Both the position numbers and the translations under genes were made by a program. A model generated the notes under the pieces. The model was not told the DNA's origin and did not search any database. It saw nothing but the letters and a program-made list of their open reading frames with translations. DNA of 64,000 bases. Source: Bacteroidales bacterium (GTDB lineage: Bacteria; Bacteroidota; Bacteroidia; Bacteroidales; F082). The stretch's first letter is position 1. Every line of letters starts with the position of its first letter. Below are positions 6,103 through 53,864 of the stretch, piece after piece. The DNA lies in assembly GCA_024400305.1 (NCBI GenBank), contig JAKSMX010000008.1, positions 1 to 64,000 of the forward strand, written 5' to 3'.

Positions 6103-6121
6103 AGTTTTTAGTTTTTAGTCT

Positions 6122-34188: not shown

Positions 34189-34310
34189 AAAAAATTCCAT
34201 ATATAGAGTTCATCTATTCAAAAGGCATACGCCATGTTCATAACAAATATTGACAATTTTCCGCCTCTTCTTTTTTTGTGAATTTTGCTCGGAAATAAAA
34301 AAAGATTACT

Positions 34311-34318
34311 TATCTTTG
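34311..34318 (+). promoter_or_regulatory. -7 element for rpe
   Basis: TATCTTTG followed by GCAAA, 24 bases before the ATG. Confidence 0.55.
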
Positions 34319-34341
34319 CAAATCGTTTTACAAAATAAGAT

Positions 34342-34989: not shown

Positions 34990-35055
34990 TTGCCTGCGGC
35001 AAATGTGTTCGAAGCGAAAGGAATCAACTAAAATATAAAACTAAATCATATTAAC

Positions 35056-36519
35056 ATGAACGAAATTGTTGCAACATTGAAACCTGCGAACGTCTGGAAA
35101 GAGTTCCAGGGCATCATGGGCGTACCGCGCCCGTCGAAGAAAGAAGAGAAAATGGTCGCTTATCTTGAGAACTGGGCCATTGAACACAAAGTGAAATACG
35201 TTAAAGAGCCGTGCGGCAACATCATCATGACGGCGCCGGCGACACCGGGCATGGAAGACCGTCAGACGATCATCCTCCAGGCGCACATGGACATGGTCTG
35301 CGAGAAGAACGGCGACTGCGCCCACGACTTCCTCAACGACCCCATCGAGGCCGTCATGAAGGGCGAATGGCTTCACGCCAACGGCACCACCCTCGGCGCT
35401 GACGACGGCATCGGCGTGGCGGCGGCATTAGCTGTCATCGCCGACACGACGGTGAAACACGGCCCGTTGGAGTGCATCTTCACCGTTGACGAAGAGACAG
35501 GCCTCACCGGCGCCGAGAAACTCGACCCGAAAGACTTCACGGGCCGCATCCTCCTCAACTTAGACTCGGAAGACGAAGGCCAGATCTTCATCGGCTGCGC
35601 CGGCGGCATGGACACCATCGTCAAGATTTTCTACAAACTCGAGAGCGTGCCGGCAGGCTACATCCCTTACGACGTGAAAGTCAGCGGACTCAAAGGCGGT
35701 CACTCCGGCGACGACATCAACAAAAACCTCGCCAACGCCAACAAACTCCTCACCAGAATACTCTGGCAGGCAGCTAACGAATACGACCTCAGGATATACG
35801 ACATTCAGGGCGGCAACCTGCGCAACGCCATCGCGCGCGAGGCTAACGCCGTGGTCTTCATCCCGAAAGAAAACGCCGGACAATTTGAGGCTTTCGTGGC
35901 AGAGATGGAAAAAAATTTCAAGAACGAATACCATGTGGCAGAACCTAACATCAGCGTGAAGACCTGCAAGTCGGACACGACAGCCGACGTCGTCATCGAC
36001 GAGATGACACAGTTCGACCTTCTGAACGGACTCCTCACCTGCCCTCACGGCGTCATCGAGATGTCGCAGACAATCCCGAACTTCGTGGAGACATCCACAA
36101 ACCTCGCGTCGGTGAAGAGGAAAGAAGGTTATTTCTTCATCCAGACATCACAGCGCAGCTCCATCGAGTCGGCAAAAGAATACGTCGGAGCGATGGTCGA
36201 AGCCTGCTTCAACCTCGCCAACGCCGAGGTCGAGCACACCGACGGCTACCCAGGCTGGACACCGAACCCTGATTCCGTCATCTGCGAGATAGCCAAGAAA
36301 TGCTATGTAAAACGTTTCAACAAAGATCCGAAAGTCCTGGCAATCCACGCCGGTCTCGAATGCGGTCTCGTCGGCGACAAGATCTCCGGCATGGACATGA
36401 TTTCGTTCGGCCCGACGCTCCGCGGCGTCCACTCACCCGACGAGAGAATCGAGATCGCGACAGTGCAGATGTTCTGGGACTTCCTCTGCGACATACTGCT
36501 TGAAGCACCGAGGAAGTAA
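35056..36519 (+). CDS. pepD: Aminoacyl-histidine dipeptidase (PepD, M20 family)
   Basis: 487 residues. M20 metal-binding motifs are QAHMDMVCEK (His-x-Asp), GADDGIG and VDEETGLTGA (catalytic Glu-Glu), with metal ligands in NLDSEDEG and near the C terminus in GPTLRGVHSPDER. The dimerisation lid is present (VSGLKGGHSGDDI). It cleaves a broad range of dipeptides including carnosine in the cytoplasm, using two zinc ions. AAAGGAA 15 to 20 bases upstream could act as a weak ribosome site. A 17-bp imperfect inverted repeat follows the gene. Confidence 0.95.
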   Translation: MNEIVATLKPANVWKEFQGIMGVPRPSKKEEKMVAYLENWAIEHKVKYVKEPCGNIIMTAPATPGMEDRQTIILQAHMDMVCEKNGDCAHDFLNDPIEAVMKGEWLHANGTTLGADDGIGVAAALAVIADTTVKHGPLECIFTVDEETGLTGAEKLDPKDFTGRILLNLDSEDEGQIFIGCAGGMDTIVKIFYKLESVPAGYIPYDVKVSGLKGGHSGDDINKNLANANKLLTRILWQAANEYDLRIYDIQGGNLRNAIAREANAVVFIPKENAGQFEAFVAEMEKNFKNEYHVAEPNISVKTCKSDTTADVVIDEMTQFDLLNGLLTCPHGVIEMSQTIPNFVETSTNLASVKRKEGYFFIQTSQRSSIESAKEYVGAMVEACFNLANAEVEHTDGYPGWTPNPDSVICEIAKKCYVKRFNKDPKVLAIHAGLECGLVGDKISGMDMISFGPTLRGVHSPDERIEIATVQMFWDFLCDILLEAPRK

Positions 36520-36547
36520 GATTCCGACAGGAACATAAATTCAGAAA

Positions 36548-36586
36548 AGAGGGCGTATCAGAACTCAATGTTTTGGTACACCCTCT
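36548..36586. terminator. 17-bp imperfect inverted repeat after pepD
   Basis: AGAGGGCGTATCAGAAC (36548-36564) faces GTTTTGGTACACCCTCT (36570-36586); three positions differ from perfect pairing. It is probably the pepD terminator. Confidence 0.6.
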
Positions 36587-36689
36587 CTTCGGCACACGAC
36601 GTGTCGGCATATTGGGGTAAGAATAAAACAATTGAAAGCGTTGGCATTTGTACGTTTCTGGAAATTTTAAATAAAAAGATGATAAGAAA

Positions 36690-37412
36690 ATGAACAATAT
36701 TACCCTCATCGACAAAGACTACAAACAATGGATTAGTGAACTCAGCAGCCGTTTCCGCCAGAGTCAGGTTAAGGCAGCGGTGAGGGTGAACAGTACCATG
36801 CTCGAATTTTATTGGAGCATTGGCAGAGATTTGAGCCAAAAGCAATTTCTGAACACATACGGAAGTGGATTTTTCAAACAAGTCAGTGCCGATTTACAAA
36901 ATGAACTTCCTGATGTAAAAGGACTTTCGCCTACAAACATAAAATACTGCAAGTATTTTTACGAGTTGTATTCCCCTTTACTTGAAAATTCTCTTGGTAC
37001 AACCAATGATAATATCTTTACTGATTCTCAAGATGTTGAAATTCGTCTACAACATATAGACGATTCTGCAATTAGCAAAAATCGTCAACAGACTGTTGAC
37101 GATTTTGAAATGTTGTTTCGTATTCCATGGGGACATCATGTCCAAATCATCGACAAATGCAAATACAATATGCCCAAAGCCTTGTTTTTTGTGCAAAAGG
37201 CCATTGAGAACAATTGGAGCAGAGCTGTGTTGCTCAATTTCCTTGATACGGACCTCTTCGAACGCGAAGGAAAGGCAATAACAAACTTTAAAACATCATT
37301 GCCGGCACCCGATGGCGACTTGGCTCAACAAATGACCAAGTTACCTGAGAACTTCAAGTCGTCGCTTCCCGCAATTGAAGAACTTGAAAGTGCTCTTGGA
37401 GATTTTGAATAA
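36690..37412 (+). CDS. DUF1016 N-terminal protein lacking the nuclease domain
   Basis: 240 residues. Residues 1-200 match the DUF1016_N (YhcG-type) domain: WISELSSRFRQSQVKAA, LEFYWSIGRDL, FRIPWGHHVQIID and NWSRAVLLNF. Family members are normally ~340-380 residues with a C-terminal PDDEXK nuclease domain. Here DLAQQMTK, which normally leads into that domain, is followed directly by LPENFKSSLPAIEELESAL, which looks like the usual last helix. I infer an in-frame internal deletion of the nuclease. It stands just upstream of the BREX-like operon, a common setting for this family. Confidence 0.75.
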   Translation: MNNITLIDKDYKQWISELSSRFRQSQVKAAVRVNSTMLEFYWSIGRDLSQKQFLNTYGSGFFKQVSADLQNELPDVKGLSPTNIKYCKYFYELYSPLLENSLGTTNDNIFTDSQDVEIRLQHIDDSAISKNRQQTVDDFEMLFRIPWGHHVQIIDKCKYNMPKALFFVQKAIENNWSRAVLLNFLDTDLFEREGKAITNFKTSLPAPDGDLAQQMTKLPENFKSSLPAIEELESALGDFE

Positions 37413-37764: not shown

Positions 37765-38541
37765 ATGAATGAACAAATAAAAAACATACTTCGTGATTTG
37801 CAAAATGCCACTTCAGAACTGAATGTGATTCGTGATTTGTTTCAAGCAAAACTAGATTATTTCAACGAAGAAGACAGGCGTAAAATCAATGAATTCAACG
37901 AAACTTTTGAGCAAAAACGCGAACAAATTGATGGGAAAATAAATTCTTTTGTGCGTTTTATTGAGAAAAGCTTTGCTCCTTCTGCTGAAGAAATTGTAAA
38001 AGAAAAAGCTTTGCAAAAGCTTCATACAGATTTTCCCGAATTTGACAAATGGGATGCTTCCGTGCAAAATGCTATACTTGAAAGAGAAATGAAGTCTTTC
38101 GTGATAGACTCAAAAGATAATAAATCCAAAGAAAAGTCACCCACTATTGGCGCTACAGTATGTTACGACAACCCGGAACCTGATAAAGCTTTCCCGATTA
38201 CATATAATTTTGAATATTGCCGGCCTTATGCAATTGAGGTTTGTGGTGAACGGCATAACATTAAATCATGGCGCGATGCTTTGTGTGCCGTTGCAGAGGT
38301 TTTGTGTGAGCATAACGTAAAGCCATTGGAGTCTTTTATGTCCATGGATGTAAAAGAAAAGCCGTGGTTTTCTAAGACTCCTGACTTGTATAGAAGCCCT
38401 TTGGAAATTGCTGAAGGAGTGTTTGCCGAAGCCAATTTGAATGCAAAATCAATGTTGGCTTCATGCTGTAAGTTGCTGGATATTTATTCGGTAAGCTACA
38501 ACGAAGTATGTGTATATTTGAGTAAAATTGCCATTAACTAA
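37765..38541 (+). CDS. First gene of the BREX-like operon; coiled-coil protein of unknown function
   Basis: 258 residues, no signal peptide. Residues 1-75 are a charged coiled coil (LRDLQNATSELNVIRDLFQAK split by EEDRRKINEF). Residues 75-130 are helical. The last ~110 residues form a compact domain (ITYNFEYCRPYAIEVCGE, IKSWRDALCAVAEVLCEHN, FSKTPDLYRSPLEIAEG, VFAEANLNAKSMLASC). That C-terminal module pattern seems familiar from other defence-island proteins, but I cannot name the family. Its stop is two bases before the brxP start, so translation is probably coupled. It may be an accessory subunit or sensor; this is inference. Confidence 0.75.
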   Translation: MNEQIKNILRDLQNATSELNVIRDLFQAKLDYFNEEDRRKINEFNETFEQKREQIDGKINSFVRFIEKSFAPSAEEIVKEKALQKLHTDFPEFDKWDASVQNAILEREMKSFVIDSKDNKSKEKSPTIGATVCYDNPEPDKAFPITYNFEYCRPYAIEVCGERHNIKSWRDALCAVAEVLCEHNVKPLESFMSMDVKEKPWFSKTPDLYRSPLEIAEGVFAEANLNAKSMLASCCKLLDIYSVSYNEVCVYLSKIAIN

Positions 38542-38543
38542 CA

Positions 38544-41045
38544 ATGTTTAAGATAAGTTGGGATAAAGAAACCGGAGGTGTGCGCTTGTCGAGCAAAATT
38601 GAGCCCGACACGCTTGGAGTGTCTCCACGCCCTGTTTTCTTTGAAGAATTGGATTTGTTGAAACTTGACAAACTCGGCTGGAAATACCCACATTGTCAGG
38701 AACCATTATTGTGGGCATGCAACAAACAATATTTTTATCGTGGCGAATTGATGTTTGAAGCCAAGGGTGCAAACGTTTATGATCCTGCAACGGTAGTTTT
38801 TCAGGATGGAAAAGAGACAGCAGAACTTGTGCCTGTTGATGTAAAGGAAATGCTTGAACGCTGCAAAAACGAAATGTTCTTGCTTGAGACGGAAGCCATA
38901 GAATTTATTCGTGATACGTATTTGCAATATGTCGATGCCAGCAAAAAAGTAGATACGATAAAGGCAAATCAAGTGGATTTTGAAACACTCGTTAGTCGAG
39001 TTTCAAAAGATCAGAAAAAGCAGATGGCCATTGTCAAGCAGGATTGCGACAGTTTTGACATCATGCCTCTTGAAGAAGCAAAAAACGCTGGTAAACGTAC
39101 ATACGTCACAACAAAGATTGATAAGTTTTTGGCCTCTTTTTCCGGTGGAAAAGACAGCCAGGTCGTGCTTGACCTATGCACGAGAGCCATCCCGCCACAA
39201 GCGTTTGAAGTAATTTATAGTGATACAGGCTACGAACTGCCGCCTTCGTTGGAACTTTATGAAGAAATAAAGAAACATTATCAGACTCTTTATCCAGAGC
39301 TTTCTTTCCGAATTGCCCGCAACCACGAAAGTGTGCTGAACTATTGGGATAAAATCGGCACACCGTCCGACACGCACCGTTGGTGTTGCTCTGTAATGAA
39401 AACAGCTCCTCTTTACAGGATGCTCAAAGTTGATGGGACAAACAAACAGGCAAAAGTACTGGCGTTTGAGGGTACGCGAGGAGAAGAGAGTTCACGCCGT
39501 TCCAACTATGAACGAATAGGAAAGGGAGTGAAACACAATAGCGTTATAAATGCAAGACCACTGATTTATTGGAATACAACAGAGGTTTTTCTCTATCTTT
39601 TGAAATATGATATTCCAATAAATAATGCTTATAGGGTGGGGAAACCACGTGTTGGCTGTTTGATTTGCCCTTTCTCGTCAGAATGGGATGATATGATTGT
39701 CAACACATGCTACCACGAGAATTTGAAGCCTTTTCTAACAAGGATAGAAAAGATAGCAAAAGACAGAGAGATTCCTAATCTAAATGAATATGTACAAAAT
39801 CATAGTTGGAAATTAAGAGCAAGCGGTAAGTTTATGAATTCCAACAAGAAAGTGGTTTTCACGCAAGATAAGGGTCATTTGGTTGGATATACAGAGAACT
39901 CAGCGACAAATATTGAGCTGTGGCTTCCTATACTAGGTCATTGTTATTTCGGAAAACAAGACAAAGTATTGAAAGGTGAGATCAAAACAAAGAAAAAAAC
40001 ATACACATTTGAAATTATTCAAAACGAAAAGAATGGTTTTGATTTTTCGTTTCAAAACATCAATGACATTCTAATCATTGGCGATATAAAAAGGATTATT
40101 TATAAATCAACATATTGCATACAGTGTGAAGCTTGTGAAGTTGAATGTCCTACTGGTGCGTTATATATTTATCCTAATATAAATATTGATTCATCCAAGT
40201 GCATTCATTGTAACAAATGTATTGATTTTCACGCTAAAGGATGTATTACAGCAGATTCATTAAATATGGCACAAACAGAGAAAACAAAACTAACTGGTAT
40301 TAGCGGTTATGGAACATTTGGATTAAGAGAAGAATGGCTTTCTGAGTATTTCATTGCACAAGATGCTTATTGGGAAAACAACTCATTAGGCAAAAAGCAA
40401 GTTCCATCATTCAAAACTTGGCTCAAAGATGCCGACATTGTTGATGCAAAAGGGGATATCACACACTTAGGCAAATTATTGACTGATACGTATATAGATA
40501 ATCCATTATTAGTGTGGGAAATTATATGGATAAACCTTGCTACGAACTCCGCACTCATAAAATGGTTCATTGAAAAAGTTGAAATCAATACAGTGTATTC
40601 AAAACAAGTTTTGCAAGAATTTTATGCAAACGAATATACCGAAGGTCAAACAACATTTGAATATGCCGTAGGAGCATTGTTCAATTTTTTATCATCAACG
40701 CCAATAGGTAATGTTATTAATCAAAAACTTGATTTCAATAAAAACGAATATAAACGAGACACATATTCAGACCTTTCCAGAGAAGCGATAGCCTATTCCT
40801 TGTATAAATTTGCAGAGAATCAAGGAATAAAATCATTCCGTGTCAGCGATTTGTATAATGATGAATGTAATGGCGGCCCTTATCGTGAATTTGGAATTAG
40901 CAAGGCCGATTTGGAAAAAGCCTTGCGTTCGCTCAATTCCGAGAACAATCGCGTGCTTACCGCCGAACTTAACATGGGCTTGGACCACATATCATTACGT
41001 GAAGATTTGAATGCCATTTCAGCATTGGAAATATTGACCAAATAA
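38544..41045 (+). CDS. brxP: BrxP-like PAPS-reductase/ATP-pyrophosphatase with ferredoxin motif
   Basis: 833 residues. The adenylating PP-loop SFSGGKDS is at residues 198-205. Conserved cysteines occur in HRWCCSV (281-282) and GCLICPF. A [4Fe-4S] ferredoxin motif CIQCEACEVECP starts at residue 525, followed by a second, irregular cluster (CIHCNKCIDF...C). The C-terminal ~240 residues start with GYGTFGLREEWL, resembling DUF4007. Related DndC proteins put sulphur into DNA, and type 4 BREX loci carry this gene (brxP) in place of a methyltransferase. I infer a role in DNA modification or sulphur chemistry for self-recognition. The next gene starts at the following base. Confidence 0.88.
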   Translation: MFKISWDKETGGVRLSSKIEPDTLGVSPRPVFFEELDLLKLDKLGWKYPHCQEPLLWACNKQYFYRGELMFEAKGANVYDPATVVFQDGKETAELVPVDVKEMLERCKNEMFLLETEAIEFIRDTYLQYVDASKKVDTIKANQVDFETLVSRVSKDQKKQMAIVKQDCDSFDIMPLEEAKNAGKRTYVTTKIDKFLASFSGGKDSQVVLDLCTRAIPPQAFEVIYSDTGYELPPSLELYEEIKKHYQTLYPELSFRIARNHESVLNYWDKIGTPSDTHRWCCSVMKTAPLYRMLKVDGTNKQAKVLAFEGTRGEESSRRSNYERIGKGVKHNSVINARPLIYWNTTEVFLYLLKYDIPINNAYRVGKPRVGCLICPFSSEWDDMIVNTCYHENLKPFLTRIEKIAKDREIPNLNEYVQNHSWKLRASGKFMNSNKKVVFTQDKGHLVGYTENSATNIELWLPILGHCYFGKQDKVLKGEIKTKKKTYTFEIIQNEKNGFDFSFQNINDILIIGDIKRIIYKSTYCIQCEACEVECPTGALYIYPNINIDSSKCIHCNKCIDFHAKGCITADSLNMAQTEKTKLTGISGYGTFGLREEWLSEYFIAQDAYWENNSLGKKQVPSFKTWLKDADIVDAKGDITHLGKLLTDTYIDNPLLVWEIIWINLATNSALIKWFIEKVEINTVYSKQVLQEFYANEYTEGQTTFEYAVGALFNFLSSTPIGNVINQKLDFNKNEYKRDTYSDLSREAIAYSLYKFAENQGIKSFRVSDLYNDECNGGPYREFGISKADLEKALRSLNSENNRVLTAELNMGLDHISLREDLNAISALEILTK

Positions 41046-42443
41046 ATGATTACACCTATGCAGATTGACATGAAAGAGAACCAGCAAACAGAATTCAAAC
41101 AGACGTGGCACGATGAGTACCTCAAATGGATTTGCGGTTTTGCCAACGCCGAAGGTGGAAAAATCCTTATCGGTGTGAACGACGATGGCACTATCTGCGG
41201 CGTTAACGATGCCAAACGCCTTATGGAGGACATCCCAAATAAGGTAAAGAACGCACTCGCCATTGTGCCACATGTCAGTCTGCTGGAAAAAGACAGACTG
41301 GAGTACATTGAGATATCCATTTCTCCATATCCATTCCCTGTAAGCTATGGTGGCAGGTATTATATGCGTTCGGGGGCGACAAACCAGCTGCTGAACGGGC
41401 AGGCTCTTGATGCCTTTATCCTTAGGAAACAGGGCATCACATGGGACAGTATTCCCGTAACACAACTGCAATTTTCCGATATTGACGGACTTGCTGTAAG
41501 ATACTTCGTGCGTCTGGCCACTAAGAAAGGCAGGATTGACAGCGACATTGCCTCCGAAGAAACCGAACAACTGCTCAAAAAGCTAAATCTGTACAAAAAC
41601 GGCTTCTGGACAACTGCGGCAGCCCTTCTCTTCACCGAGAATCCCGAACGGTATATTGGCGGTTCGTATGTAAAAATCGCCTTTTTCGAAAACGATGCCG
41701 ACATTCTTTATATGGACGAAGTGCATGGTCCTCTGTTGCAACAAGCCGACGAAACCATAGATGTCATCATGAAGAAATATCTGAAAGCCCGTATTTCCTA
41801 CGATGGCATCCACCGAGTCGAGCGTTATCCTTTCCCCGAAGATGCCCTGCGCGAAGCGGTGCTCAATGCCATTGTACACAAGGACTATGCCCGCCAAATC
41901 CCCATACAGATTCGCGTGTATGTCGACAAAATCATGATTTTCAACGATTGTCAACTTTCTGCTTACTGGACGGACAAAACATTGAAACAAAGCCACAAAA
42001 GTGAACCATACAACCCAAACATTGCCCATGTGTTTTATCTTTCGGGACATGTGGAAAGCTGGGGCCGTGGCATCGACAAGATATGTAAGTCATGCTCTAT
42101 ACACGGCATCCCATTGCCGGAATACAATGTGCAAACCGAAGAAATATGTGTTACTTTCAGGACATCCGACGAGTACTTGAATGGCGCTAAGGGAACAACC
42201 GACTTCCCAAAGGATTCCCAAAGGATTCCCAAAGAAGTTCCCAAAGAAATTTCCGAATCAGTCCGCAGAACGTATGATGCGATTGCTGAAAATCCCCGAC
42301 TCACAATCAAGGAACTATCTGAAAAACTTGGAATTTCGGACAGAACAATCAAAAAACACATTGCGTACTTAAAAGAAGAAGGTCTTATAGAAAGGGTCGG
42401 AGGCAAGACGCACGGACACTGGCGAGTAAAGCCTATAAAGTAA
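41046..42443 (+). CDS. AlbA_2 (Schlafen-like) ATP-binding protein with C-terminal HTH
   Basis: 465 residues. The AlbA_2 domain is at ~12-125 (QTEFKQTW, ICGFANAEGGKILIGV, RYYMRSGATNQ). A GHKL-type ATPase region follows at ~260-370 (REAVLNAIVHKDYA, SWGRGIDKIC). A Pro/Lys linker with the repeated word (R)IPKEVPKE precedes a winged HTH (~410-460: NPRLTIKELSEKLGISDRTI, KHIAYLKEEGLIERVG). This architecture is common in putative transcription regulators. Its place between brxP and brxC, with no gap on the left and 34 bases on the right, suggests a role in controlling or assisting the BREX-like system. An alternative start is at MKENQQ (residue 9). Confidence 0.85.
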   Translation: MITPMQIDMKENQQTEFKQTWHDEYLKWICGFANAEGGKILIGVNDDGTICGVNDAKRLMEDIPNKVKNALAIVPHVSLLEKDRLEYIEISISPYPFPVSYGGRYYMRSGATNQLLNGQALDAFILRKQGITWDSIPVTQLQFSDIDGLAVRYFVRLATKKGRIDSDIASEETEQLLKKLNLYKNGFWTTAAALLFTENPERYIGGSYVKIAFFENDADILYMDEVHGPLLQQADETIDVIMKKYLKARISYDGIHRVERYPFPEDALREAVLNAIVHKDYARQIPIQIRVYVDKIMIFNDCQLSAYWTDKTLKQSHKSEPYNPNIAHVFYLSGHVESWGRGIDKICKSCSIHGIPLPEYNVQTEEICVTFRTSDEYLNGAKGTTDFPKDSQRIPKEVPKEISESVRRTYDAIAENPRLTIKELSEKLGISDRTIKKHIAYLKEEGLIERVGGKTHGHWRVKPIK

Positions 42444-42477
42444 ACGAAAAACAAAAGGAATTAGAAATAAAGAAGAT

Positions 42478-45400
42478 ATGGCAACAAAATATTCCGATAT
42501 AATCACAATTCGTGAAGGTAAACCTGCCTATAACATTACAAATGAAGAAGACGGCCAGTGGACAAGTTTCATTGCAAACAAACAGTTCAATGACATTCTG
42601 AAAACTGTTATTAAATCGGTAAGAAACACTGATATTGACGCACACCGTTCTTTCTGGATTTCGGGCACATACGGAACTGGCAAAAGCCACGCAGGAGCTG
42701 TCATCAAACATTTGCTTTGTGATGAAGTGGAGCAAATCAGAGAATATGTGGATAATGAATACAAGGAAAAGGAATATGATTTGCTTCGCCAAGATATATA
42801 TTCTTTACGTCAAAGCAAACGATTGTTCCCGGTAATGCTTTATGGACAAAGCAATATATCACACAAGGAAGATCTGTCGCTCCAATTGCAGCGGGCCATA
42901 AGTGAAGCGCTGCAAAAGGCTTGCATTTCAATTACCGTAAAAACCGATTTCGATAATCTTGTTGAACACATTGAAAAGCAACCTGATTTGTGGAATCTGC
43001 TAATTGAAAAAAGCCCTCAATTAGCATCTGTTGCTCCGACAATCGAAAAACTGAAAAACAAACTGCAAAACAAAGACAATTCAACTTTTGCAAAAGTGGT
43101 TGAGGCGCAACGTAGCACAGGAATCGATATTCGTCTTGCAAACACTAAACTTGCAGAATGGTTTTTTGAAGTGCAAAACGAATTGGCAAGCCAAAAAGAC
43201 AAGTATGGTTACGACGGGCTGCTCGTTATTTGGGATGAATTTACAGATATTGCGGCTTCAGATATAGGACCAAGCCTATTAGTTGCCTTGCAGGAAATAG
43301 ATGAAAAAGTGATGAACAAAGAGAACAATTCATACTTTTTCTATATTTCACATCCTTCGGCATTGAATGGATTGGACAATCAGGAACGAGAAAAGACAAA
43401 GGGACGTTATCATTTTATGGAATATAAAATGGAAACGGTTTCGGCATTCAAGATTATGAGTCGCAAATTCCGTTTGGCAGATAATGCAACGGCAGAAGAA
43501 CAAGAGACAATCGCAAATAGGTTTTTTGCCAAACCCGGTTGCAATTCTTTGATTTCTTTGTTTGCCCCAGATTCAGCAAAACAGGAAGAAACCCAAAAGG
43601 ATTTGTTTAATCTTTTCCCTTTACATCCGAGTACGGCAAATCTTGCCACCTACTATGCCCGTGAAGTAGGTTCATCCAGCCGAAGCGTTTTTGAATTCAT
43701 CGGAAACAATGATGCAGTAAAAGTGTTTTTGAACGATGAAAATCATTTTCTCAATGGCGATGTAATTACGGCAGACTACCTTTGGGACTTTGTCCAGGAA
43801 GTGTTTAATGCCGATGTCTTGAAATATGGTGTGGTGACCGAACGCTATAATGCACGACATTTGGAAGTTGAAGCCAAAGGATATGAGTATTCGGCCGTCT
43901 TTAAAGGCATTTTGTTGCTCAATGCTTTGAACAACATTGCGGCAAGTGATACAGTTACTCCCACTGGCGGAAACATATTGAATTTGTTTACTGGAACTTT
44001 TATCGAGCCAATTCTTGATGAAATTCTTGTATACTTTGATGAACACAGTATCATCCAGCGTTTGCCAGGAGATGACAACGGATTGTATTCCATTCAGTTT
44101 TCTGCGTTACCGACAAAAGAAATCCAAGATGAAAAAGATAATCTGAAAAACAGCGAATTTAAATATACAGAAAAACTGTTGAATTTCAATGATGTTCAAG
44201 TCCGCAAAATCATAGATGGTTGGTTGTCAAATGTTATTCGCCAATATCAATACAATATTTTCTCACAAAACACCAACGAGTCATTGCTTCTGAACCAGAT
44301 TGAAAACAGTCACAAACAAGCAAAACCATACGAGCTGTTTTTAGCAATGCTTTTCGGGAAAAATCTTAACGAAGTGAATGCTCTTAGAGAAATTGCAAAT
44401 AACAATTCTTCTGACGAGCGATTTGCGAACGTAGTGTTTGTGGTGTTTGAAGAACCTTTTAGTGATAAAAACTACGAAAGATTCATCGAGTTTATGGCAA
44501 ATTCCAAATGTGCAGGGAAATACAATCAGACGGAGCAGCAGAAAACGCATCGGGAAAATGCTTTTTCTCTTGTGAAGGATTGGCTATTTTCCGTCAGACG
44601 CAACAATTTCACATATTATTTGAGGGGAGAAAAAGGATTCGGTTCCACACAGAAAATCACCAGTACAATAAATGAGGATATAACAACAAAGATATTTTCC
44701 AAGGGTCCGGAAACGATTACGTTTTTGCGCAGAGTTCCCAATACGTTCTGGAAGAAACAGTCAAGCAAGACTATGGCTGACAACTTCTTGTCTTTTTCAA
44801 CAAAGCAGGAAATTCTTGACAAATGTACTGGTCCCATGCAGCCGATACGTTTCGTTTTGCAAGACATGGTAAACGAAAATCTGGAATGGGTTGATGGTGC
44901 AGATACGAATCACCCATTATATGTCATTTCAAATTTTATTGACAACAAGTTCAAGCATACTTCCAAAAGCGAGCAATTTAATATGGGCGAAAGGTTGAAG
45001 GAACTTTCGTATCCGCCATACGGTTTGTATCAATCCTACGCTTCCATGGGTATGGTCGCATTTGCCATGCGGAAATGGATAAAGCAAATTTTTGATTTGA
45101 ATGGCAAACCACGTGATGTCAAAAATATGGTGGATGATGTTGTTGAGCTGTTTAATGCTTGGGAAAAAGACAAAGAAAGTAACAAACTGGATTTCCGTTT
45201 TGAGACTAAAGAAAGCCGTAACGTTTGTGATACCATAGTCAAAACATTCAAACTCAATAATCTAAAAGGCTATTCAGACATTAGTAGTTTGACAGATGCC
45301 CGCAACGCCTTTAAGTATGGTTACTTGGCTGAAAAGGGATTCCCACTGTGGTCGCTGAAATACGCTGATGAAAACATCAAAGATGGAATAAAAACACTTT

Positions 45401-46032
45401 TAGACAACCTGCTGCGTATCATAGCCACCGACAACACCCGTGACCCGAAGTTGTTAGACGACACATTGAATGGTTTCCACAACTATAAATTTGAATTGTC
45501 GAATTATCTGAATGAGGCGGACTCTTTCAAAAAAGGATTTGAAAACTATTTGTTGCAATTGCCTAATATCAAATTCCAAGTCAGTGAGTTTGACGAAGCG
45601 TTTGACTATTTGGAACATCATCTGCAAAACTCGAAAGGACTATGGAGTGAAGAGGAAGTGTCAAAAGAAATCAGCAATTGGAGGGCGTACAAATCACGCG
45701 AAGAAACAGTCAAAATCACTCTGGAGTTAATTGCCAAAATTGACGACATTGAAGAATGTAGCAAATATTTAGTTCATGGTGACGAAAGGATTGTTGAAGC
45801 GGCAAAGAAACGCATTGAATATTTGAAACTGCTTGCACCTCAGCCGCAGCCCAAATCTCAACCTCAGCCGCCTACTCCAACGAATCAATTTCACCAAAAG
45901 CGGTCAAATGCCATCAGCAAGGTTCAACGCATTTCTGATGTCAGCAAGGCTCGTGAACTTTTGAAGAAGATTTGCGAAGATGACAGTGTGGCAGAAAGAA
46001 TTATTGACATAATAAACAACTACGATGCGTAA
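42478..46032 (+). CDS. brxC: BrxC/PglY-like large P-loop ATPase
   Basis: 1184 residues. Walker A is GTYGTGKSH (63-71) and Walker B LLVIWDEF (248-255), in an N-terminal ATPase domain. The remaining ~800 residues are helical and contain no enzyme signature I recognise; a Pro/Gln-rich stretch (QPQPKSQPQPPTPT) lies near residue 1130 before a final helical hairpin. Size, motif spacing and the position directly before pglZ fit BrxC/PglY, the core ATPase of BREX defence. The 3' end overlaps pglZ by eight bases, so they are translationally coupled. Base composition is AT-rich compared with the flanking chromosome. Confidence 0.85.
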   Translation: MATKYSDIITIREGKPAYNITNEEDGQWTSFIANKQFNDILKTVIKSVRNTDIDAHRSFWISGTYGTGKSHAGAVIKHLLCDEVEQIREYVDNEYKEKEYDLLRQDIYSLRQSKRLFPVMLYGQSNISHKEDLSLQLQRAISEALQKACISITVKTDFDNLVEHIEKQPDLWNLLIEKSPQLASVAPTIEKLKNKLQNKDNSTFAKVVEAQRSTGIDIRLANTKLAEWFFEVQNELASQKDKYGYDGLLVIWDEFTDIAASDIGPSLLVALQEIDEKVMNKENNSYFFYISHPSALNGLDNQEREKTKGRYHFMEYKMETVSAFKIMSRKFRLADNATAEEQETIANRFFAKPGCNSLISLFAPDSAKQEETQKDLFNLFPLHPSTANLATYYAREVGSSSRSVFEFIGNNDAVKVFLNDENHFLNGDVITADYLWDFVQEVFNADVLKYGVVTERYNARHLEVEAKGYEYSAVFKGILLLNALNNIAASDTVTPTGGNILNLFTGTFIEPILDEILVYFDEHSIIQRLPGDDNGLYSIQFSALPTKEIQDEKDNLKNSEFKYTEKLLNFNDVQVRKIIDGWLSNVIRQYQYNIFSQNTNESLLLNQIENSHKQAKPYELFLAMLFGKNLNEVNALREIANNNSSDERFANVVFVVFEEPFSDKNYERFIEFMANSKCAGKYNQTEQQKTHRENAFSLVKDWLFSVRRNNFTYYLRGEKGFGSTQKITSTINEDITTKIFSKGPETITFLRRVPNTFWKKQSSKTMADNFLSFSTKQEILDKCTGPMQPIRFVLQDMVNENLEWVDGADTNHPLYVISNFIDNKFKHTSKSEQFNMGERLKELSYPPYGLYQSYASMGMVAFAMRKWIKQIFDLNGKPRDVKNMVDDVVELFNAWEKDKESNKLDFRFETKESRNVCDTIVKTFKLNNLKGYSDISSLTDARNAFKYGYLAEKGFPLWSLKYADENIKDGIKTLLDNLLRIIATDNTRDPKLLDDTLNGFHNYKFELSNYLNEADSFKKGFENYLLQLPNIKFQVSEFDEAFDYLEHHLQNSKGLWSEEEVSKEISNWRAYKSREETVKITLELIAKIDDIEECSKYLVHGDERIVEAAKKRIEYLKLLAPQPQPKSQPQPPTPTNQFHQKRSNAISKVQRISDVSKARELLKKICEDDSVAERIIDIINNYDA

Positions 46033-48424
46033 CGATTTTTCTAATTTTGAGGACTTAATAAACCACGTCAGATTAGACAAAGAATTGTCCGGAGTTGCAT
46101 CAGGGACCGCCAACCGTTTTCCTGTGCGTTTCGTGCTGTTTGATAATTTTCAGGATTCATATCGCTTCGTTTCTTATGTTCAGGAGCAGGGCTGCCATTT
46201 CAAAAATGTAAATGATTGGATGGATAGTGATTATCCTGATACGATTCTAACCTATAGTGAATTGTCAAACAGCATTTTGGATTATGCAGTTTCATACAAC
46301 GACGACTGCATAATCACTCCGTTTTCTGAATTGGCAAGATTTTATAATAATGAAAGGTCAGCGAAAGAGTTTGATGCGCTTGTTAAAACAATCAAAGGAA
46401 TTGAAAACAACAGCCAGGCGGTCGCGAAAAACCGTCGTATTTACATTCCCATTGTCGGTCTTGAAGGAAAGATGTCTTTGTTTGAAAATGACTCCCAATG
46501 TACCGTGTGGTATTTGAAAAATGCTGACAAGAGCTTTACATACGACCTTATATTAACAAATGGCACAACATACGGTATTTGTGATTTGTCGATGTTCAAC
46601 GTTGCGCATTCCGTAAATGAATGGCTCAATGTGTGGAAGGCTCAACCTGCTGTAAAACCATTGATAATTTGTACTTCTCCAGCTATATTTGCCAATGCTC
46701 AATATGCAAAGCCAGACAATGCGTTTTATTTCATCACGTGTCCATCCGCTTATGAATTTTTGACAAAAGGATTAAAACTGGATTTTGGAAAAATTGAATA
46801 CAAACCTACAGATGAGCAACATTGGCAAAGATTAGCTCAAGAAATTACCGATATTAAATCTTTTTCATTTGAGAAGTTTTTCAATTCATATTTCCATATC
46901 GACAATCTTTCCGATTACAATGTTTTCCTCAAAACGTGGTTTGAATGCAATGATGATTTTGAAAAATGGCTGCTTACGACCTATTACAATGAAAAGTTCT
47001 GCCAGGAAGGTTATATTTGCCGAGTAATTAACAAAATACAATGTTATACCAATAACGAATTCTTCTCAGCAATTGCATTAGAGATCTTCTCTCTTGACAA
47101 ATCTGATAATTATATAGAAGAAAGGTTGACTTGCTTGCAATCTGCCAAAGAACACAATGTTTTGTTGAGCCAAGAGACAGAAGTTATGCTTAAAGACGAA
47201 CTAAACAAGTTGGCTGAAGTGAATGGATATCCAACTGCAATTCGTTATTTTTCTCCTTTAACCAAGACAGAAAAACTTTTGGCAACAGAATGGTTCGCTC
47301 AAGGGAACATCTCAAAGAATAGTCTTCAATCATTCTTTCCAGATCTGTATAATTATCTTGAACCAAATTCGGGTGCTTCTCTATCTTGGATTAATAGTTA
47401 TTTCAATGCTTACAAGCAGGCAAAACTTGCCGACAGATATACTTCGGAAATAGCTGGTTATATCAAAGAAAAGAATGGTTCTGTATCAGCTTGTAATGAA
47501 TGGTATCAGCAATTGAAAACGACCAAGACAATTTTAAGCGGACGCTCGGATATAGATGTTTATTATTGGATTGACGGTCTTGGCGTTGATTGGATTCCGT
47601 ATATTCAAAAGTGTCTTGAGAAGAAGCAAAAAGACGGCATCTTTCTTAATGAAATTCATATAGCACGAGCTGCATATCCATCAACAACAGAAGTCAACAA
47701 AAAAGCTTTATTCGAGCTTTCAAACGGAACATTAAAGAAGTGTGGTGACCTGGATGCTCATGCCCACAAAAGCAACAAGTTCCCAAATTATATTCTTGAA
47801 GAGCTTGAGATAGTAAATAAGGCCATTGAAACAATAGTTTCAGAATATAATGGAAAGAAAATTGCCATTGTGTCAGACCATGGTCTTACGTCGCTTTCTC
47901 AACATTGTGATGGTTTGAATTTAGCCAGAGTAGAATCTGATCATCATGGTCGTTTGGCGTTTCGTAAAGATGGAAAGTGCGTTTCTTGCGAAGATTACAT
48001 TGTATGTGATGATGAGAAAACCATGTGCGCCCTAAATCATCAATCACTATGTGGGAAAGTACCCAACGGACAAAGTGCTCATGGCGGTTGTACGCCAGAG
48101 GAAATACTTGTCCCAATATTTGTTATTTCCTCCAAGAAAGATGCGGTTCAGTGGACGGCGACACTTTTAACAAAAACGCTGTCTGAATCTGCTCCAATCG
48201 TCAAGTATCAAATCAAAGGCATTAGTTCTATTGATATTCCTTATGTCAATTATAATGAAAAGCAATATATGCTATCTTCAAAAGGTGATAATGTTTATCA
48301 AAGCGAGAAACTATCATTAAGTCAGTCTGTAAAAACAATTGAACTTGTTATTTCAGGAACAAAGCAAACCGATACCATTGACATAAAACTTGGTGCCGAA
48401 GAAGACGATTTGTTTAACTTTTAA
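46025..48424 (+). CDS. pglZ: PglZ-domain protein (BREX)
   Basis: 799 residues. The alkaline-phosphatase-fold PglZ domain is in the C-terminal half: YYWIDGLGVDW (Asp 517), IAIVSDHGL (Asp 618-His 619) and AHGGCTPEEILVP (His 686) fit its metal ligands. The N-terminal ~500 residues are a helical region specific to the subgroup. PglZ is the hallmark of BREX/Pgl phage-defence systems and is required for their activity, probably acting on nucleic acid or a protein-linked phosphate. It overlaps brxC and is followed 11 bases later by brxL. Confidence 0.9.
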   Translation: MRNDFSNFEDLINHVRLDKELSGVASGTANRFPVRFVLFDNFQDSYRFVSYVQEQGCHFKNVNDWMDSDYPDTILTYSELSNSILDYAVSYNDDCIITPFSELARFYNNERSAKEFDALVKTIKGIENNSQAVAKNRRIYIPIVGLEGKMSLFENDSQCTVWYLKNADKSFTYDLILTNGTTYGICDLSMFNVAHSVNEWLNVWKAQPAVKPLIICTSPAIFANAQYAKPDNAFYFITCPSAYEFLTKGLKLDFGKIEYKPTDEQHWQRLAQEITDIKSFSFEKFFNSYFHIDNLSDYNVFLKTWFECNDDFEKWLLTTYYNEKFCQEGYICRVINKIQCYTNNEFFSAIALEIFSLDKSDNYIEERLTCLQSAKEHNVLLSQETEVMLKDELNKLAEVNGYPTAIRYFSPLTKTEKLLATEWFAQGNISKNSLQSFFPDLYNYLEPNSGASLSWINSYFNAYKQAKLADRYTSEIAGYIKEKNGSVSACNEWYQQLKTTKTILSGRSDIDVYYWIDGLGVDWIPYIQKCLEKKQKDGIFLNEIHIARAAYPSTTEVNKKALFELSNGTLKKCGDLDAHAHKSNKFPNYILEELEIVNKAIETIVSEYNGKKIAIVSDHGLTSLSQHCDGLNLARVESDHHGRLAFRKDGKCVSCEDYIVCDDEKTMCALNHQSLCGKVPNGQSAHGGCTPEEILVPIFVISSKKDAVQWTATLLTKTLSESAPIVKYQIKGISSIDIPYVNYNEKQYMLSSKGDNVYQSEKLSLSQSVKTIELVISGTKQTDTIDIKLGAEEDDLFNF

Positions 48425-48435
48425 TCAATGAAACA

Positions 48436-49872
48436 ATGGATAATTCATTAAGCGAAAAAATAAGAACTCAATTTGCTTCAATGGCAATATACAAAGACTC
48501 TGCTTCAACGAATAGCTTATTTGCGGGAAGAAACCTGCCGTCGTTTGTCAAAGATTTTGTACTAAAGAAGTATATCAATGAATTAGGGCAAGTTGATAAA
48601 AATGGCCTTACTAACTTTCTTGATACAGTTATTCCTCAAAAAGCGGAGGAGGTAAAGGACCGTTTAGGTAATGGAGAGGAAATCACATTGCTCACTCGTT
48701 TTATTATCTATATTGATTTGGTTAAGGGAGTCCGGCGTTTTGGCATTCCGGATTTAGGTATAAAAATAAATGAAGGGCAAATTCCTGAATATGTTTATTC
48801 AAAACATAAAGGCTCATTGGTCGATGGTGAGAAATGGGGAATAATAAAACTTTGCGTCTTACCTGATGCTGATGGAAAGAAGCAACATGTTGAAATGATC
48901 GATTATAAACCATTTAAACCATATAAATCCGTTGATGTCGATTTCTTTCGTGAAGTCCGCAAAAACTTCTCCACATCTGAATGGATTGACTTTCTGCTTT
49001 CGGCAATGGAGTACGATCCTGATGGTTTTGAAAGTATTGCATGTAAATTGGAGTTCCTGACACGTTTGCTTATTTTTGTTGAGCCAAGGCTGAATTGTAT
49101 TGAACTTGCGCCAAAAGGTACAGGAAAATCATATGTTTTTGGCAATCTTTCTAAATATGGCTGGTTGGTAAGTGGTGGTAAAGTTACCCGTGCTAAGTTG
49201 TTCTACGATAAGCAGAAACAACAAAACGGTATTATAAAAAATCATGATTTTACAGCATTTGATGAAATACAAACCATTGTTTTTCAAGAACCATCTGAGA
49301 TACAAGCGGCCTTAAAATCATATCTTGAAAGTGGCAAAACCACTATTGATAATAACGAGTTTTCATCGGAATGCGGTTTGATTTTGATGGGAAATATCCC
49401 GTTAACAAAAGACAGGCATCCTGTGTCGGTGAGATATTTTGATTCATTACCAGCAAACTTCCGAGAATCGGCATTATTAGACCGTTTCCATTGTTTTATT
49501 GAAGGTTGGTATTTGCCGAGGATTAACAAAAGTATGATTTTTAAAGGTTGGACTGTCAATGTAGAGTATTTTTCCGAGATACTTCATTCGATGCGTACAC
49601 AAAACCAATATGGGCTTTTGTTTGATGAATTAGTGTCTTTCCAAAAAGACTCAGATATGCGTGATTTCACTGCCGTAAAACGTATCACAACTGCGTATAT
49701 GAAATTAATTTTTCCACATTGGATAACAATAGAAGATGTAAATCTGGAAGAATTTGACTTGTATTGTTTACAGCCTGCTATTCATCGTAGGGGTATAGTT
49801 AAAGAGCAGTGCCATAATATTGATGCAGAGTTTAAAACTCAAATGCCGATAATAGAAGTAAAAGAGTTTTAA
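48436..49872 (+). CDS. brxL: BrxL-like AAA+ protein (BREX), without a visible Lon protease domain
   Basis: 478 residues. The N-terminal ~190 residues match the BrxL-specific region (LPSFVKDFVLKKYI, EEITLLTRFIIYIDL). The AAA+ core has Walker A PKGTGKSYVFG (226-236), Walker B FDEIQTI (275-281) and an arginine-finger-like FRESALLDRFHCFIEGW. Type 1 BrxL proteins are longer (~680 residues) and carry a C-terminal Lon-like domain; here the protein ends about 90 residues after the AAA+ lid with no serine-lysine protease motif. Members form ring-shaped DNA-binding ATPases needed for defence. Last gene of the operon. Confidence 0.88.
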   Translation: MDNSLSEKIRTQFASMAIYKDSASTNSLFAGRNLPSFVKDFVLKKYINELGQVDKNGLTNFLDTVIPQKAEEVKDRLGNGEEITLLTRFIIYIDLVKGVRRFGIPDLGIKINEGQIPEYVYSKHKGSLVDGEKWGIIKLCVLPDADGKKQHVEMIDYKPFKPYKSVDVDFFREVRKNFSTSEWIDFLLSAMEYDPDGFESIACKLEFLTRLLIFVEPRLNCIELAPKGTGKSYVFGNLSKYGWLVSGGKVTRAKLFYDKQKQQNGIIKNHDFTAFDEIQTIVFQEPSEIQAALKSYLESGKTTIDNNEFSSECGLILMGNIPLTKDRHPVSVRYFDSLPANFRESALLDRFHCFIEGWYLPRINKSMIFKGWTVNVEYFSEILHSMRTQNQYGLLFDELVSFQKDSDMRDFTAVKRITTAYMKLIFPHWITIEDVNLEEFDLYCLQPAIHRRGIVKEQCHNIDAEFKTQMPIIEVKEF

Positions 49873-49998: not shown

Positions 49999-50034
49999 AC
50001 CTCTTCATCAAAACAAAAAGCTGAAATCACAAAC

Positions 50035-50069
50035 AAGCCCCGAAGGTTTCTCTTTGACCTTCGGGGCTT
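50035..50069 (-). terminator. Strong terminator after the C25 peptidase gene
   Basis: AAGCCCCGAAGGT (50035-50047) pairs perfectly with ACCTTCGGGGCTT (50057-50069). On the minus strand it is followed by T-rich sequence. Confidence 0.85.
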
Positions 50070-50104
50070 AATCCGTTGATTTACACAATATAAACGTCAG
50101 ATAA

Positions 50105-53100
50105 TCACCTCACGACAATCCTCCTTGCCGCCACATTTCCGCTTTCACAAATCTTGATGACATACAGACCTTCAGCCAAACCGCTGACATCAATCCGCTG
50201 CGGGCCGTCTGCCGTCCCGCCAATGACCTGCTGACCTAAATTGTTGTAAATGAAATAGTCGTACTTCACATCGCCGGCATTGATGTAAACAACATCGTCG
50301 GCGGGGTTCGGATAGATGCTGAAATGAATTTCATTTTCATCCACAGCGGTTATGACCTCGACCAGCACGTTCACAGGCATCGACTCGCCGCCCGAATAGA
50401 TGGCCGTGACACTGTAAGTATATGTCATCTCGTCCTGAACCTGATCGTTGTAACTCGTGGCTGTCGTCTCACCCAAAGTGACGCCGTTGCGTGCGACGCG
50501 GTAGCGGTTTGCGCCCGAAGGAGCCGCCCACGACAGCGCGACATTGTTGCCATTGACGGTGGCGTTGAGATCCCAGACAGGGGCGAAATACTCGCCTGAC
50601 CCGCAGCTCACGTCGAAGCTGCCGCCTTGCGGCCCGTTGCTGAGGATGACTGTGCCGTCTTCATAATGAACGACATACGAGCATTCACTATCCCAGTTGC
50701 CGCCGCTGTGCCACGTAAGTGTGACGTGCGTGCCGTTATGAAGCCAGCGCTCGTAGGTGGCAAAGGCACCCTGCTCGTGAGAGACATACATGTCGTCGGC
50801 TGGCGTGCCGTCGCTGTATTCGACATGAAGCCTCGAGTTATCCCAACCGTCGTTCCATTTGTCGGAGAGGTCGAAGATGACAAGGCATGTGTTTTGCAAA
50901 GTCGCCGTCCCTTCTGCAACGACATTGTCATCAGCCAAGATGTTGAATGTGAGCGGGATCTGTTCTGATTCAGGGCAACCTGAAGCAATGGTGATGTCGA
51001 AAACAGCAGTGGCGATACCGCTTGGCGCGATGCTGCCGACAGCGACACTTGCTTCACCGAAACTGACATATTGGCTTGTTGATGAAACGCTCATATTGGC
51101 ATTTGTCGCAATATAATGACCGACATTCTCGAAAGAGGCTGCGACCTGTAGCGTCTCGCCCGCGGTAAATCCGCCCGGACACTGTGCGCCGGCAAACTCC
51201 ACGATGGCCTTGTTCGCCACGATGTTGACCACGCCTTCCCACGTCTCGGATCCGCAGGTCGCCGTCGTCCTGATGTGAAAACGGCTGCCGTCGGCGACAT
51301 TTTCGCTGATGCTGTAGCTGAAGCCTGTCAGCTCGACTGTTGCGTTTTGCGCCAAGGCGTTGAAACTCGCCGAGCCGTTGATGATAGTGACATCCTGGTC
51401 ATCGCAGGTCAATGAGACTGAGGTCGTTCCGTTTGTCGATGCAGTGCCGGTGTTCTTAAAAGTGATTGCCAAGGCGTTTTCCGCGCCGATGTGGGCATCG
51501 TCTGGTATGTAGCCGTCAACGATGACGAATGCGCCGTTGATGTTCGCCGCCGGAATCTCCTCAAGATAAGGCACGCGCTGCGGATGTGTCACGCAAAGTG
51601 TGACGTTGCCGCTCGTGGTGACAGGCTCGATGTCGAAGACGACAGTGCCGGTCTCGTCAACCAAGCCGGTGCCCAAGATGACTCCGTTTCTTGTAAGTGC
51701 CACGTATGAACCAGGGTCGGCACTGACCTCGTATGTATTTGCTCCAATCGGGACTATAGCAGCGTGGAAGACATGATTTTCAGCAGGTTGCACATGATAA
51801 GGCATGATGGAGCCGTCGCCGAGAGTGTGATAGCACTGCCAATAATACAACGGCGATGAGTCGGAAGAGACCGTGTAGCCGCTGTTGACATGCGCGTATG
51901 TGACCGACAGATTGCCCAAGAACACCATCGACTGAATGGTATTGTAGCTGTCGTCCATCCATACGCCGTCATAAACGCCGGTTGTCGTTTCGTTCCGGCT
52001 TGGCATCCTGTAGAAGACATTCGTCGCGCCGACGCCGAAGTAATAGTCTTCATACCAATACGTTGAAGGACAGCTTCCGATGTATGCGAATGCGCCTTTC
52101 CTTGGCGCGCGCACCATGGCCTCGCCGAAGCACGTTCCCGAAATGCCCCAGTCGGCGGCAAGGCAGCAGTTGCCCATAGCGAGGAAATACTTGTTTGTAT
52201 TTGTCAGATTGTTGACATCGTTGACCTCAAATTGCGGGTCTTCCCAATGGATGTTGGATCCGTGGGCAGTGTAGTTGACAAATCCGACGCCGGTGTTCAG
52301 ATTGTCGTAGCAGCCGGCATAACCGCCGAGTGTATAATAATCATATACATTTTCAAAGCCGTGTTCCTCATTGTAATAATTATGAACGGCATATTGGATT
52401 GTAGGCACGCCGGCCTTCGGGTTCCACGCCTCGTCCCAGCCCGCGATGAGAAGCACGTTGTTCAGGTAACTCGGATCGGGCATGGTGTATTGCTCGTACT
52501 GAAGGCTCTTCTCCAACAGGTTGTTGAGCTGTTCGACGGTCTCGACCGGCATACGGCTGTGAAGCATTTCCGGATAATAGTCGTTATCGACAGTCTGATA
52601 GTAAAGGTCTGTGACACAGTGTGTTGCGCTGCCGGTGGCACTCGCTGGAACCTGATTCTTGTCGCCGATGATAATGACGAAAGTCGGTGCCGTCTGCGAA
52701 TATTTTGTCTGGATGAACGATTGTATCGCCGATGCCGACGTGCCAATCTGGTCGGTGTAGTTCACATCCATGTAAAAGCCTTTCTTGACCTTCCAGTCAA
52801 CCCACTCCTGAATTGCGTTTTCAAACATGCGGTCGGTGATGACCAGCATCTTGACAGGAGCCTGCCAGAGGTCGGGGTGCTGCGCGTAAACGTCGTTGCG
52901 CCAGTTGAACATCTGACGGTAAAGCGGCGCGAAATACACGCTCGCCGTCCTCGCGAACTCCTCGTAGGCAGCCGCCTTGTCGTATTCGCCGTAACTGACT
53001 TCCACCTCGATGTCGTTGAAGACCTTCAATGTGTTGCTGGCAGCATCGTACTGAACAGGGTTTATCACCAACGAGCCGACCTGAATGCCGCGCATCGTGC

Positions 53101-53587: not shown

Positions 53588-53630
53588 ACTTTATTCTGGT
53601 TGTTACTTATTTTAAAATAAAATTTTGCCG

Positions 53631-53638
53631 CAAAGATA
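53631..53638 (-). promoter_or_regulatory. -7 element for the C25 peptidase gene
   Basis: TATCTTTG on the minus strand, 44 bases upstream of the ATG. Confidence 0.55.
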
Positions 53639-53742
53639 CAAAAAATTCATTAATATTTCACCCATTTTCCGCTTCCGCCGGAAATCATTTTCTAAAAGTA
53701 AATGCCAGAAGACATACATCAGAATTTTTTGTGAAAATAAAA

Positions 53743-53825: not shown

Positions 53826-53864
53826 AAGTTTCAAATAATTTATTGTAATTCAAGAAAAAAGATG

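Follow-up and report, generated by a model that had tools for sequence, protein, structure and literature searches.

What does a six-gene defence operon of a Bacteroidales bacterium encode, which of its genes belong together, and which part of it changes between close relatives? We addressed these questions for the operon at positions 37,765 to 49,872 of contig JAKSMX010000008.1 (GenBank assembly GCA_024400305.1). The window denotes the whole stretch of DNA analysed, 64,000 nucleotides (positions 1 to 64,000, forward strand). An original prediction, made from the letters of the window, had called the locus a type 4 BREX-like (bacteriophage exclusion) operon with two extra genes. Our analysis points to a BREX type 4 operon with a mosaic BrxP, in which an exchangeable module most likely sets the DNA target specificity. 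We put the probability of this reading at about 0.6; it draws on sequence comparison and on analogy with type I restriction.

Core genes of the operon

The coordinates of the open reading frames (ORFs) bore out six co-directional genes, all on the + strand, with spacings of 2, 0, 34, -8, and 11 bases. The proposed BREX type 4 identity also held: in the PADLOC search, proteins 2, 4, 5, and 6 fell in BrxP, BrxC, PglZ, and BrxL, the match spanning 90% or more of every one of them. brxP (38544 to 41045) matched at 4e-284. brxC (42478 to 46032), which encodes an SspC-like AAA+ ATPase, matched BrxC at E=0 and SspC at 1e-19. pglZ (46025 to 48424) is of type 4, with a PADLOC match at 3e-229 and 714 bits against NCBIfam BREX_PglZ_4 (NF033445; cut-off 140), and brxL (48436 to 49872) encodes the short form with BrxL_N and BrxL_ATPase domains (PADLOC 2e-216; Pfam; NCBIfam TIGR02688 above cut-off). 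All four are full-length open frames. As predicted for a set without PglX, no PglX match at E ≤ 0.01 was found by PADLOC for the six proteins (for gene 3, among the 24 families listed). Likewise, PADLOC gave no match to SspA or SspE among the six, and Pfam gave no GmrSD domain (for gene 3, among the best 25 of 36 matches); GmrSD genes are present elsewhere in the host genome.

The product of the second gene had been described as PAPS-reductase-like, which stands, and Pfam added ferredoxin cysteines and a C-terminal DUF4007 part. From its N-terminal side, BrxP comprises a PAPS_reduct domain (SGGKDS at residues 200 to 205), a variable region, ferredoxin-type (Fer4) cysteines at residues 525 to 567, which are conserved in the BrxP alignment, and a DUF4007/SspB-like C-terminal part. 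BrxP also matched the SspD and SspB models of PADLOC, and a PDB search with the BrxP profile gave only one ferredoxin match. Because the profiles fit the published type 4 set, the core of the operon is, judged by its families, an ordinary member of a known system, BREX type 4. According to passages of PMC11931770 and PMC12839542, brxPCZL makes phosphorothioate (PT) on DNA. Passages of the latter present PT as the basis of type 4 BREX and describe fusions of PAPS reductase to DUF4007; PglZ was present in every one of 457 taxa, a cysteine desulfurase in 56% of them. Pfam found no cysteine desulfurase among the six operon genes. An Aminotran_5 gene lies elsewhere in the host genome (G000:C30:10267-11376, 1e-142), a match to the cysteine-desulfurase superfamily at the superfamily level only.

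An exchanged BrxP segment in pairs of close operons

The closest named relative found was Candidatus Limimorpha caballi, of a Bacteroidales genus, with which the window genome was grouped by synteny and identity. Its operon (L002, the sister operon) has the same gene order, including gene 1 and gene 3, and is about 94% identical outside mainly BrxP residues ~309 to 781. Nucleotide identity per 200 bases, from gene 1 on, was mostly 88% to 100%, apart from a low of 80% within gene 1 (38001 to 38200). It fell with sharp edges to 53% to 62% at 39601 to 40800 within brxP, and a second drop was observed at the 3' end of pglZ. A change-point fit placed the edges of the brxP segment at residues 309 and 781 (39468 to 40886), with 93% nucleotide identity before, 55% inside, and 91% after; the log-likelihood was -1487 with one rate and -1251 with three segments. 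Synonymous divergence (dS) was 0.38 before, about 2.5 (saturated) inside, and 0.45 after. Since dS is saturated inside the segment and ordinary outside it, the pattern fits recombinational replacement, not faster protein change alone. At the amino acid level, BrxC, PglZ, and BrxL were 97%, 94%, and 98% identical. Other blocks shared by the window and the sister contig showed 87.5% to 93.5% nucleotide identity (95% over one 1860-base stretch), so that the operon as a whole lies at background identity.

A similar break was found in a second pair of operons (L044 and L042). Here BrxC, PglZ, and BrxL were 97.6%, 98.0%, and 99.2% identical in amino acids, but BrxP was only 62.9% identical. Nucleotide identity of brxP in this pair was 95% up to residue 306, 70% from there to 386, and 52% over the rest of the gene, and dS was 0.22 before residue 306 and 1.3 to 2.2 after it. 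The 5' break is thus common to two unrelated pairs, at residue 306 in this pair and at ~309 in the first. Phylogenies of 12 BrxP sequences were in conflict. The tree of the N-terminal part joined the window with the sister (support 100/99) and L044 with L042 (100/100), and that of the middle part placed the sister with L045 and L042 (100/99) and joined the window with L044 with only moderate support (87/88). In approximately unbiased (AU) tests, the middle part rejected the grouping of window and sister (3e-43) and that of L044 and L042 (5e-6), and the N-terminal part rejected the groups of the middle (6e-51 and 8e-95). Among eight close BrxP proteins, mean pair identity was 0.71 for residues 1 to 305, 0.29 for 385 to 515, 0.65 for the iron-sulfur (Fe-S) region at 516 to 575, 0.40 for 576 to 780, and 0.55 for the end. 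The identity drop in the first pair, the same break in the second, and the conflicting trees argue that BrxP carries an exchangeable module. They show BrxP to be a mosaic whose middle has been exchanged between lineages by recombination, with the ATP-binding N-terminal part staying in place.

The sources of the sequences raise another explanation, namely that the mosaic arose when metagenome bins were wrongly joined during assembly: the window genome is in 76 contigs and the sister is a metagenome-assembled genome. We regard this as very improbable, as 12 of 12 BrxP frames are open, the window segment is flanked on both sides by sister-like sequence, and the 5' breakpoint recurs in an unrelated pair.

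The module (residues ~307 to 780) takes in the last part of the PAPS-reductase domain, then an alpha/beta region and the ferredoxin region, and finally the greater part of DUF4007. In passages of PMC12839542, the DUF4007 part is modelled as a BrxA-like DNA-binding fold, and its counterpart in the Ssp system, SspB, is treated as the DNA-recognising component in passages of the review PMC12707154. Because most of DUF4007 falls inside the module, we infer that the module sets target specificity. In its more specific form, which we hold to be somewhat better than evenly balanced, residues ~307 to 780 would be a self-contained cassette that sets the PT site and passes between lineages of Bacteroidales, and the C-terminal end of PglZ would move independently of it. 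As published for the family, a cysteine desulfurase would supply BrxP with sulfur, BrxP and the BrxC ring ATPase would together install PT at specific sites of the host DNA, and phage would be excluded; PglZ and BrxL would act on unmarked DNA, by analogy with other BREX types. If the module holds specificity, a swap would re-target the PT mark and the defence in one recombination event, much as exchange of HsdS or its target-recognition domains does in type I restriction.

Several observations weigh against this reading. The specificity role is deduced from position and pattern alone. By its domain content, the exchanged segment includes catalytic and redox parts (the PAPS_reduct end and the Fe-S cysteines) and is not a pure DNA-reading domain. 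Other parts of the operon also depart from background in the first pair. The end of PglZ (residues ~703 to 799, 48131 to 48421) is replaced relative to the sister, with 97.8% nucleotide identity before residue 703 and 65% to 67% after it, and dS rising from 0.09 to 2.66. The linker of gene 1 (residues 104 to 136) showed 63.5% nucleotide identity. Residues 582 to 912 of BrxC (44221 to 45213) were unusually alike (99.3% nucleotide identity, dS 0.03, with 93% to 94% and 0.26 to 0.32 on either side), as if recently exchanged between the window and sister lineages. These three deviations point to more than one exchange in the operon. In the second pair, PglZ was 97% to 98% alike to its end, unchanged alongside the BrxP swap, so that a swap in BrxP need not go with one in PglZ. 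Further, only two close operon pairs were found, and an identity table built from the same sequences had suggested which groups to put to the AU tests. Of the four operons, three were taken from sequences that are unnamed or derive from metagenomes. For the fourth (L044), we take the IMG number to be that of an isolate genome. A third close pair was not found in the viral contigs, phages, and plasmids searched, and no silent BrxP cassette was found in the window with a further 16 kb of its contig (80 kb in all) or in ~64 kb of the sister contig.

The exchange could also serve evasion of phage inhibitors: the module would then be swapped to escape phage-encoded anti-BREX proteins while the modified DNA motif stays constant. 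Phages do encode BREX inhibitors (passages of PMC7261183), the PglZ end was replaced too in the first pair, and a C-terminal Ig-like domain, variably kept in PglZ, may bind foreign proteins (passages of PMC12839542). Neither BrxC nor BrxL showed such an identity drop in either pair, however. In addition, the DNA-binding part that resembles SspB and BrxA lies in the module, and the 5' breakpoint of the module coincides in two unrelated pairs. We therefore consider inhibitor escape unlikely and favour a module that sets specificity. No statement on an exchange of a BrxP segment was found in the literature searched, including passages of PMC12839542; the main gut BREX type 4 paper (Yuan et al.) may contain one. 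The published passages covered make no statement on how BREX type 4 chooses PT sites. Natural pairs of alleles that are nearly alike outside a single BrxP module allow the choice of PT site to be tested directly. If the reading is true, a PT-based defence would, like type I restriction, change specificity by the swap of one cassette, and BrxP would be a natural source of sulfur-marking specificities.

The two additional genes

Gene 1 (37765 to 38541) encodes 258 amino acids, with an N-terminal part that looks helical or coiled-coil by eye. It has no Pfam or PADLOC family, and neither the protein nor its domain profile had a match in the PDB. The first gene of the sister operon, 88% identical, was the only close copy found; gene 1 was absent from the 99 relatives searched, and no relative of it occurred in the plasmids or viral contigs searched. 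A phage search gave one weak match, which led to a link with GmrSD. The C-terminal domain (residues 141 to 258, 38185 to 38538) was defined by an alignment of 10 members, two of them the BREX pair; a segment around E-x-N-L-S-A is common to them, in its most degenerate form in L118, and none of the 10 has a Pfam or NCBIfam family for the domain. The gene 1 profile gave 10 non-own matches in 316 genomes, and nine contexts were fetched (G615 was left out). Profile searches yielded three further full-length stand-alone relatives, all in restriction loci: one beside mcrBC-like and Eco57I-type genes (L096), one beside a GmrSD_N protein and, by eye, an HsdR-like fragment (L097), and one beside an Eco57I/type IIG-like methylase and a PLD-helicase (L111). 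The domain also follows the GmrSD_C nuclease part in five Pfam-scanned proteins (L054, L098, L113, L114, and L116, the last continuing into DUF4268; the L098 fusion was found with profile A2, not A3) and an HSDR_N part in L118. L119, an 842-residue protein outside the family scan, carries the domain internally and looks like the fusions. In L117, it lies inside a 497-residue protein whose neighbours are SusC/SusD-like and LysR-like by eye and not clearly defensive. L112 had no ORF passing the profile, and L115 had only a 38-column remnant near an HsdS gene. The domain is, on our inference, a restriction-associated sensor or docking domain, and gene 1 most likely a small accessory of that kind common to other restriction systems. 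The domain itself is an uncatalogued module common to several such systems.

Gene 3 (41046 to 42443) had been described as an AlbA_2/HTH (helix-turn-helix) ATPase. Pfam corrects this to SLFN_AlbA_2 (PF04326, 6e-17), HATPase_c_4, and a winged helix. In an alignment of 24 rows (the window row included, one row incomplete at this place), the acidic residues E11 and E16 are each retained in 23 and D46 in 22. This triad is in line with the catalytic triad E205/E210/D248 of SLFN13 (passages of PMC5862951), with D46 as the third residue being our reading of the alignment. Schlafen-kinase-wHTH (winged helix-turn-helix) proteins occur in at least 1017 taxa and are closely linked with BREX and related core loci (passages of PMC12839542), so the class is already known beside BREX. 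We read gene 3 as most probably either a Schlafen-type RNase in a backup role or a regulator. Its sister copy has an in-frame stop at residue 244; the window/sister substitution figures for gene 3 are an artefact of this premature stop and were unused. Within gene 3, an 11-nt tandem repeat of 3.8 copies lies at 42204 to 42246, where slippage could shift the frame. Phase variation through this repeat found no support, as the sister repeat has the same length.

Relatives of gene 3 at E ≤ 1e-60 were found in 28 of 100 genomes (own included). Among 15 loci, the context was defensive in four (NACHT; TOTE; the host's own type I HsdM-DUF1016-HsdS-AlbA-HsdR locus; DUF2357/PDDEXK_7), possibly defensive in two (AAA_15; AAA with WYL), non-defensive in seven, with neighbours including prismane, MFS, FKBP, and DUF1848, and without a family in two. 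These are partial neighbourhoods of one to four neighbours per locus, 21 proteins in all, some on the opposite strand, with L077, L078, and L079 outside the neighbour scan. In the host type I locus (L084, G000:C13:28000-42000), a gene 3 paralogue and a DUF1016 gene stand among hsdM, hsdS, and hsdR.

Do the two genes belong to the system? The original prediction had made both part of it, and this is supported for the present lineage only, in which they occupy the same places in the sister operon. The junction of brxP and brxC was visible in 11 BREX-4 or BREX-4-like loci. Only the window and the sister have gene 1 ahead of brxP or gene 3 between brxP and brxC; the other nine lack both there. A scatter of the extra genes over unrelated loci, which had been named as counter-evidence, was found in part for gene 3, in defence and non-defence loci, and not among the three other full-length relatives found for gene 1, which lie in restriction loci. 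Gene 3 may be a mere transcriptional regulator inserted by chance and gene 1 a neutral passenger, neither acting in defence. The nine loci without them, the relatives of gene 3 beside prismane, MFS, FKBP, DUF1848, and other non-defence genes, and the in-frame stop in the sister copy would fit. This view must be set against the retained Schlafen acidic triad, the published linkage of the Schlafen-kinase-wHTH class with BREX, and the three other full-length gene 1 relatives in restriction loci. We hold it as possible but rather doubtful, and keep the readings given above for the two genes.

Small genes at neighbouring places were observed in other loci. Four other BREX-4 loci have a small ORF (67 to 92 amino acids) before brxP, with an HTH in L041 and L045 and no Pfam family in L046 and L047. 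The brxP-brxC slot taken here by gene 3 holds a 144-amino-acid gene in L045 (L045:6892-7326), and the sister has a 197-amino-acid gene between pglZ and brxL (L072:1305-1898) that is lacking in the window; neither has a Pfam or PADLOC family. AlbA-family proteins are encoded close downstream of brxL in L041 and L046.

Genomic setting and comparison with known systems

Transfer had been proposed from the AT-richness of the island, and the AT-richness is real. In 2-kb windows, G+C was 0.36 to 0.43 across the operon, 0.49 to 0.54 for 50001 to 55000, and 0.50 to 0.51 for 34001 to 37000; other parts of the window likewise go down to 0.40 to 0.41. A recent horizontal arrival of the operon as an AT-rich island would agree with this difference from near flanks of about 0.5, with the lack of gene 1 in 99 relatives, and with related operons on IMG/VR and phage-labelled contigs. 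The sister argues against it, with the operon adjoining the same C25 peptidase gene and a brxL-peptidase block at 92.7% nucleotide identity, in the range of other shared blocks. Recent arrival is thus rather unlikely. To the left of the operon the genomes differ, over ~34 kb in the sister and ~7 kb in the window. An uninterrupted (empty) site was sought via the C25 peptidase gene, and no relative examined had the orthologous junction: the contig of the nearest relative ends inside the C25 gene, and three other loci were 66% to 72% identical to the window at the nucleotide level, with 0 of 5 window flank proteins there. The related operons on IMG/VR and phage-labelled contigs make mobility of such operons likely. 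Two human-gut records labelled Bacteriophage sp. (L130, MT835963.1; L131, MT839469.1) carry BrxP genes, the first also brxC (a match in two pieces), pglZ, and brxL.

In the order draw, 8 of 393 genomes (own included) had a PglZ match, which in two was no stronger than E 3e-4 and 8e-4. In the phylum draw, 3 of 395 genomes (own included) had PglZ-4 above the family cut-off; at E ≤ 0.001, 93 of the 395 gave a match of some kind. BrxP at E ≤ 1e-60 was found in 1 of 375 genomes of the class draw, the own genome.

For the promoter-like element placed at the front of the operon, there is one candidate, a Bacteroidota-like TAnnTTTG at 37685 that the sister operon also has. The call is weak because the + strand of the window has this motif at 30 places and a search for a -33 partner at this site found none. 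Directly before the operon, 36690 to 37412 encodes a DUF1016_N protein without the YhcG nuclease part; the sister region has a full 408-amino-acid DUF1016 protein. The C25 (gingipain-type) peptidase gene adjoining the operon (50105 to 53587) encodes a Por secretion tail, and 11 of 13 genus genomes (own included) have at least two matches to it at E ≤ 1e-100. Tandem-repeat arrays lie at 472 to 545, 1933 to 2087, 6103 to 6508, 7868 to 8002, and 18235 to 18402 of the window, with units mostly of 7 to 9 nt or multiples.

Among known systems, the Schlafen RNase, minimal kinase, and wHTH proteins linked to BREX (passages of PMC12839542) share with gene 3 the three domains and the acidic triad; gene 3 differs in sitting between brxP and brxC and in having a sister copy with a premature stop. 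The operon resembles BREX type 4 (passages of PMC11931770 and PMC12839542) in its four core proteins in the same order, the BrxP-DUF4007 fusion, and the absence of a PglX match among the six proteins; none of the six genes encodes a cysteine desulfurase, which 56% of 457 taxa have. It differs from type 4 in its two extra genes and in a BrxP middle and a PglZ end of another allele than those of the sister. The SspABCD-SspE phosphorothioation system is similar in the matches of BrxP to SspD and SspB and of BrxC to SspC, whereas the window operon has PglZ and BrxL and no SspA or SspE match among its six proteins. GmrSD type IV enzymes share the gene 1 domain, which follows the GmrSD_C part in the five scanned proteins, and gene 1 itself is without GmrSD_N or GmrSD_C. 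In type I restriction, HsdS exchanges target-recognition domains within a conserved framework. Unlike these domains, the BrxP module lies in a sulfur-transfer protein with Fe-S cysteines, its role in specificity is putative, and no silent cassette occurred in the stretches searched. Like HsdS, BrxP combines a conserved framework with an exchangeable part, with the same breakpoint in two independent pairs.

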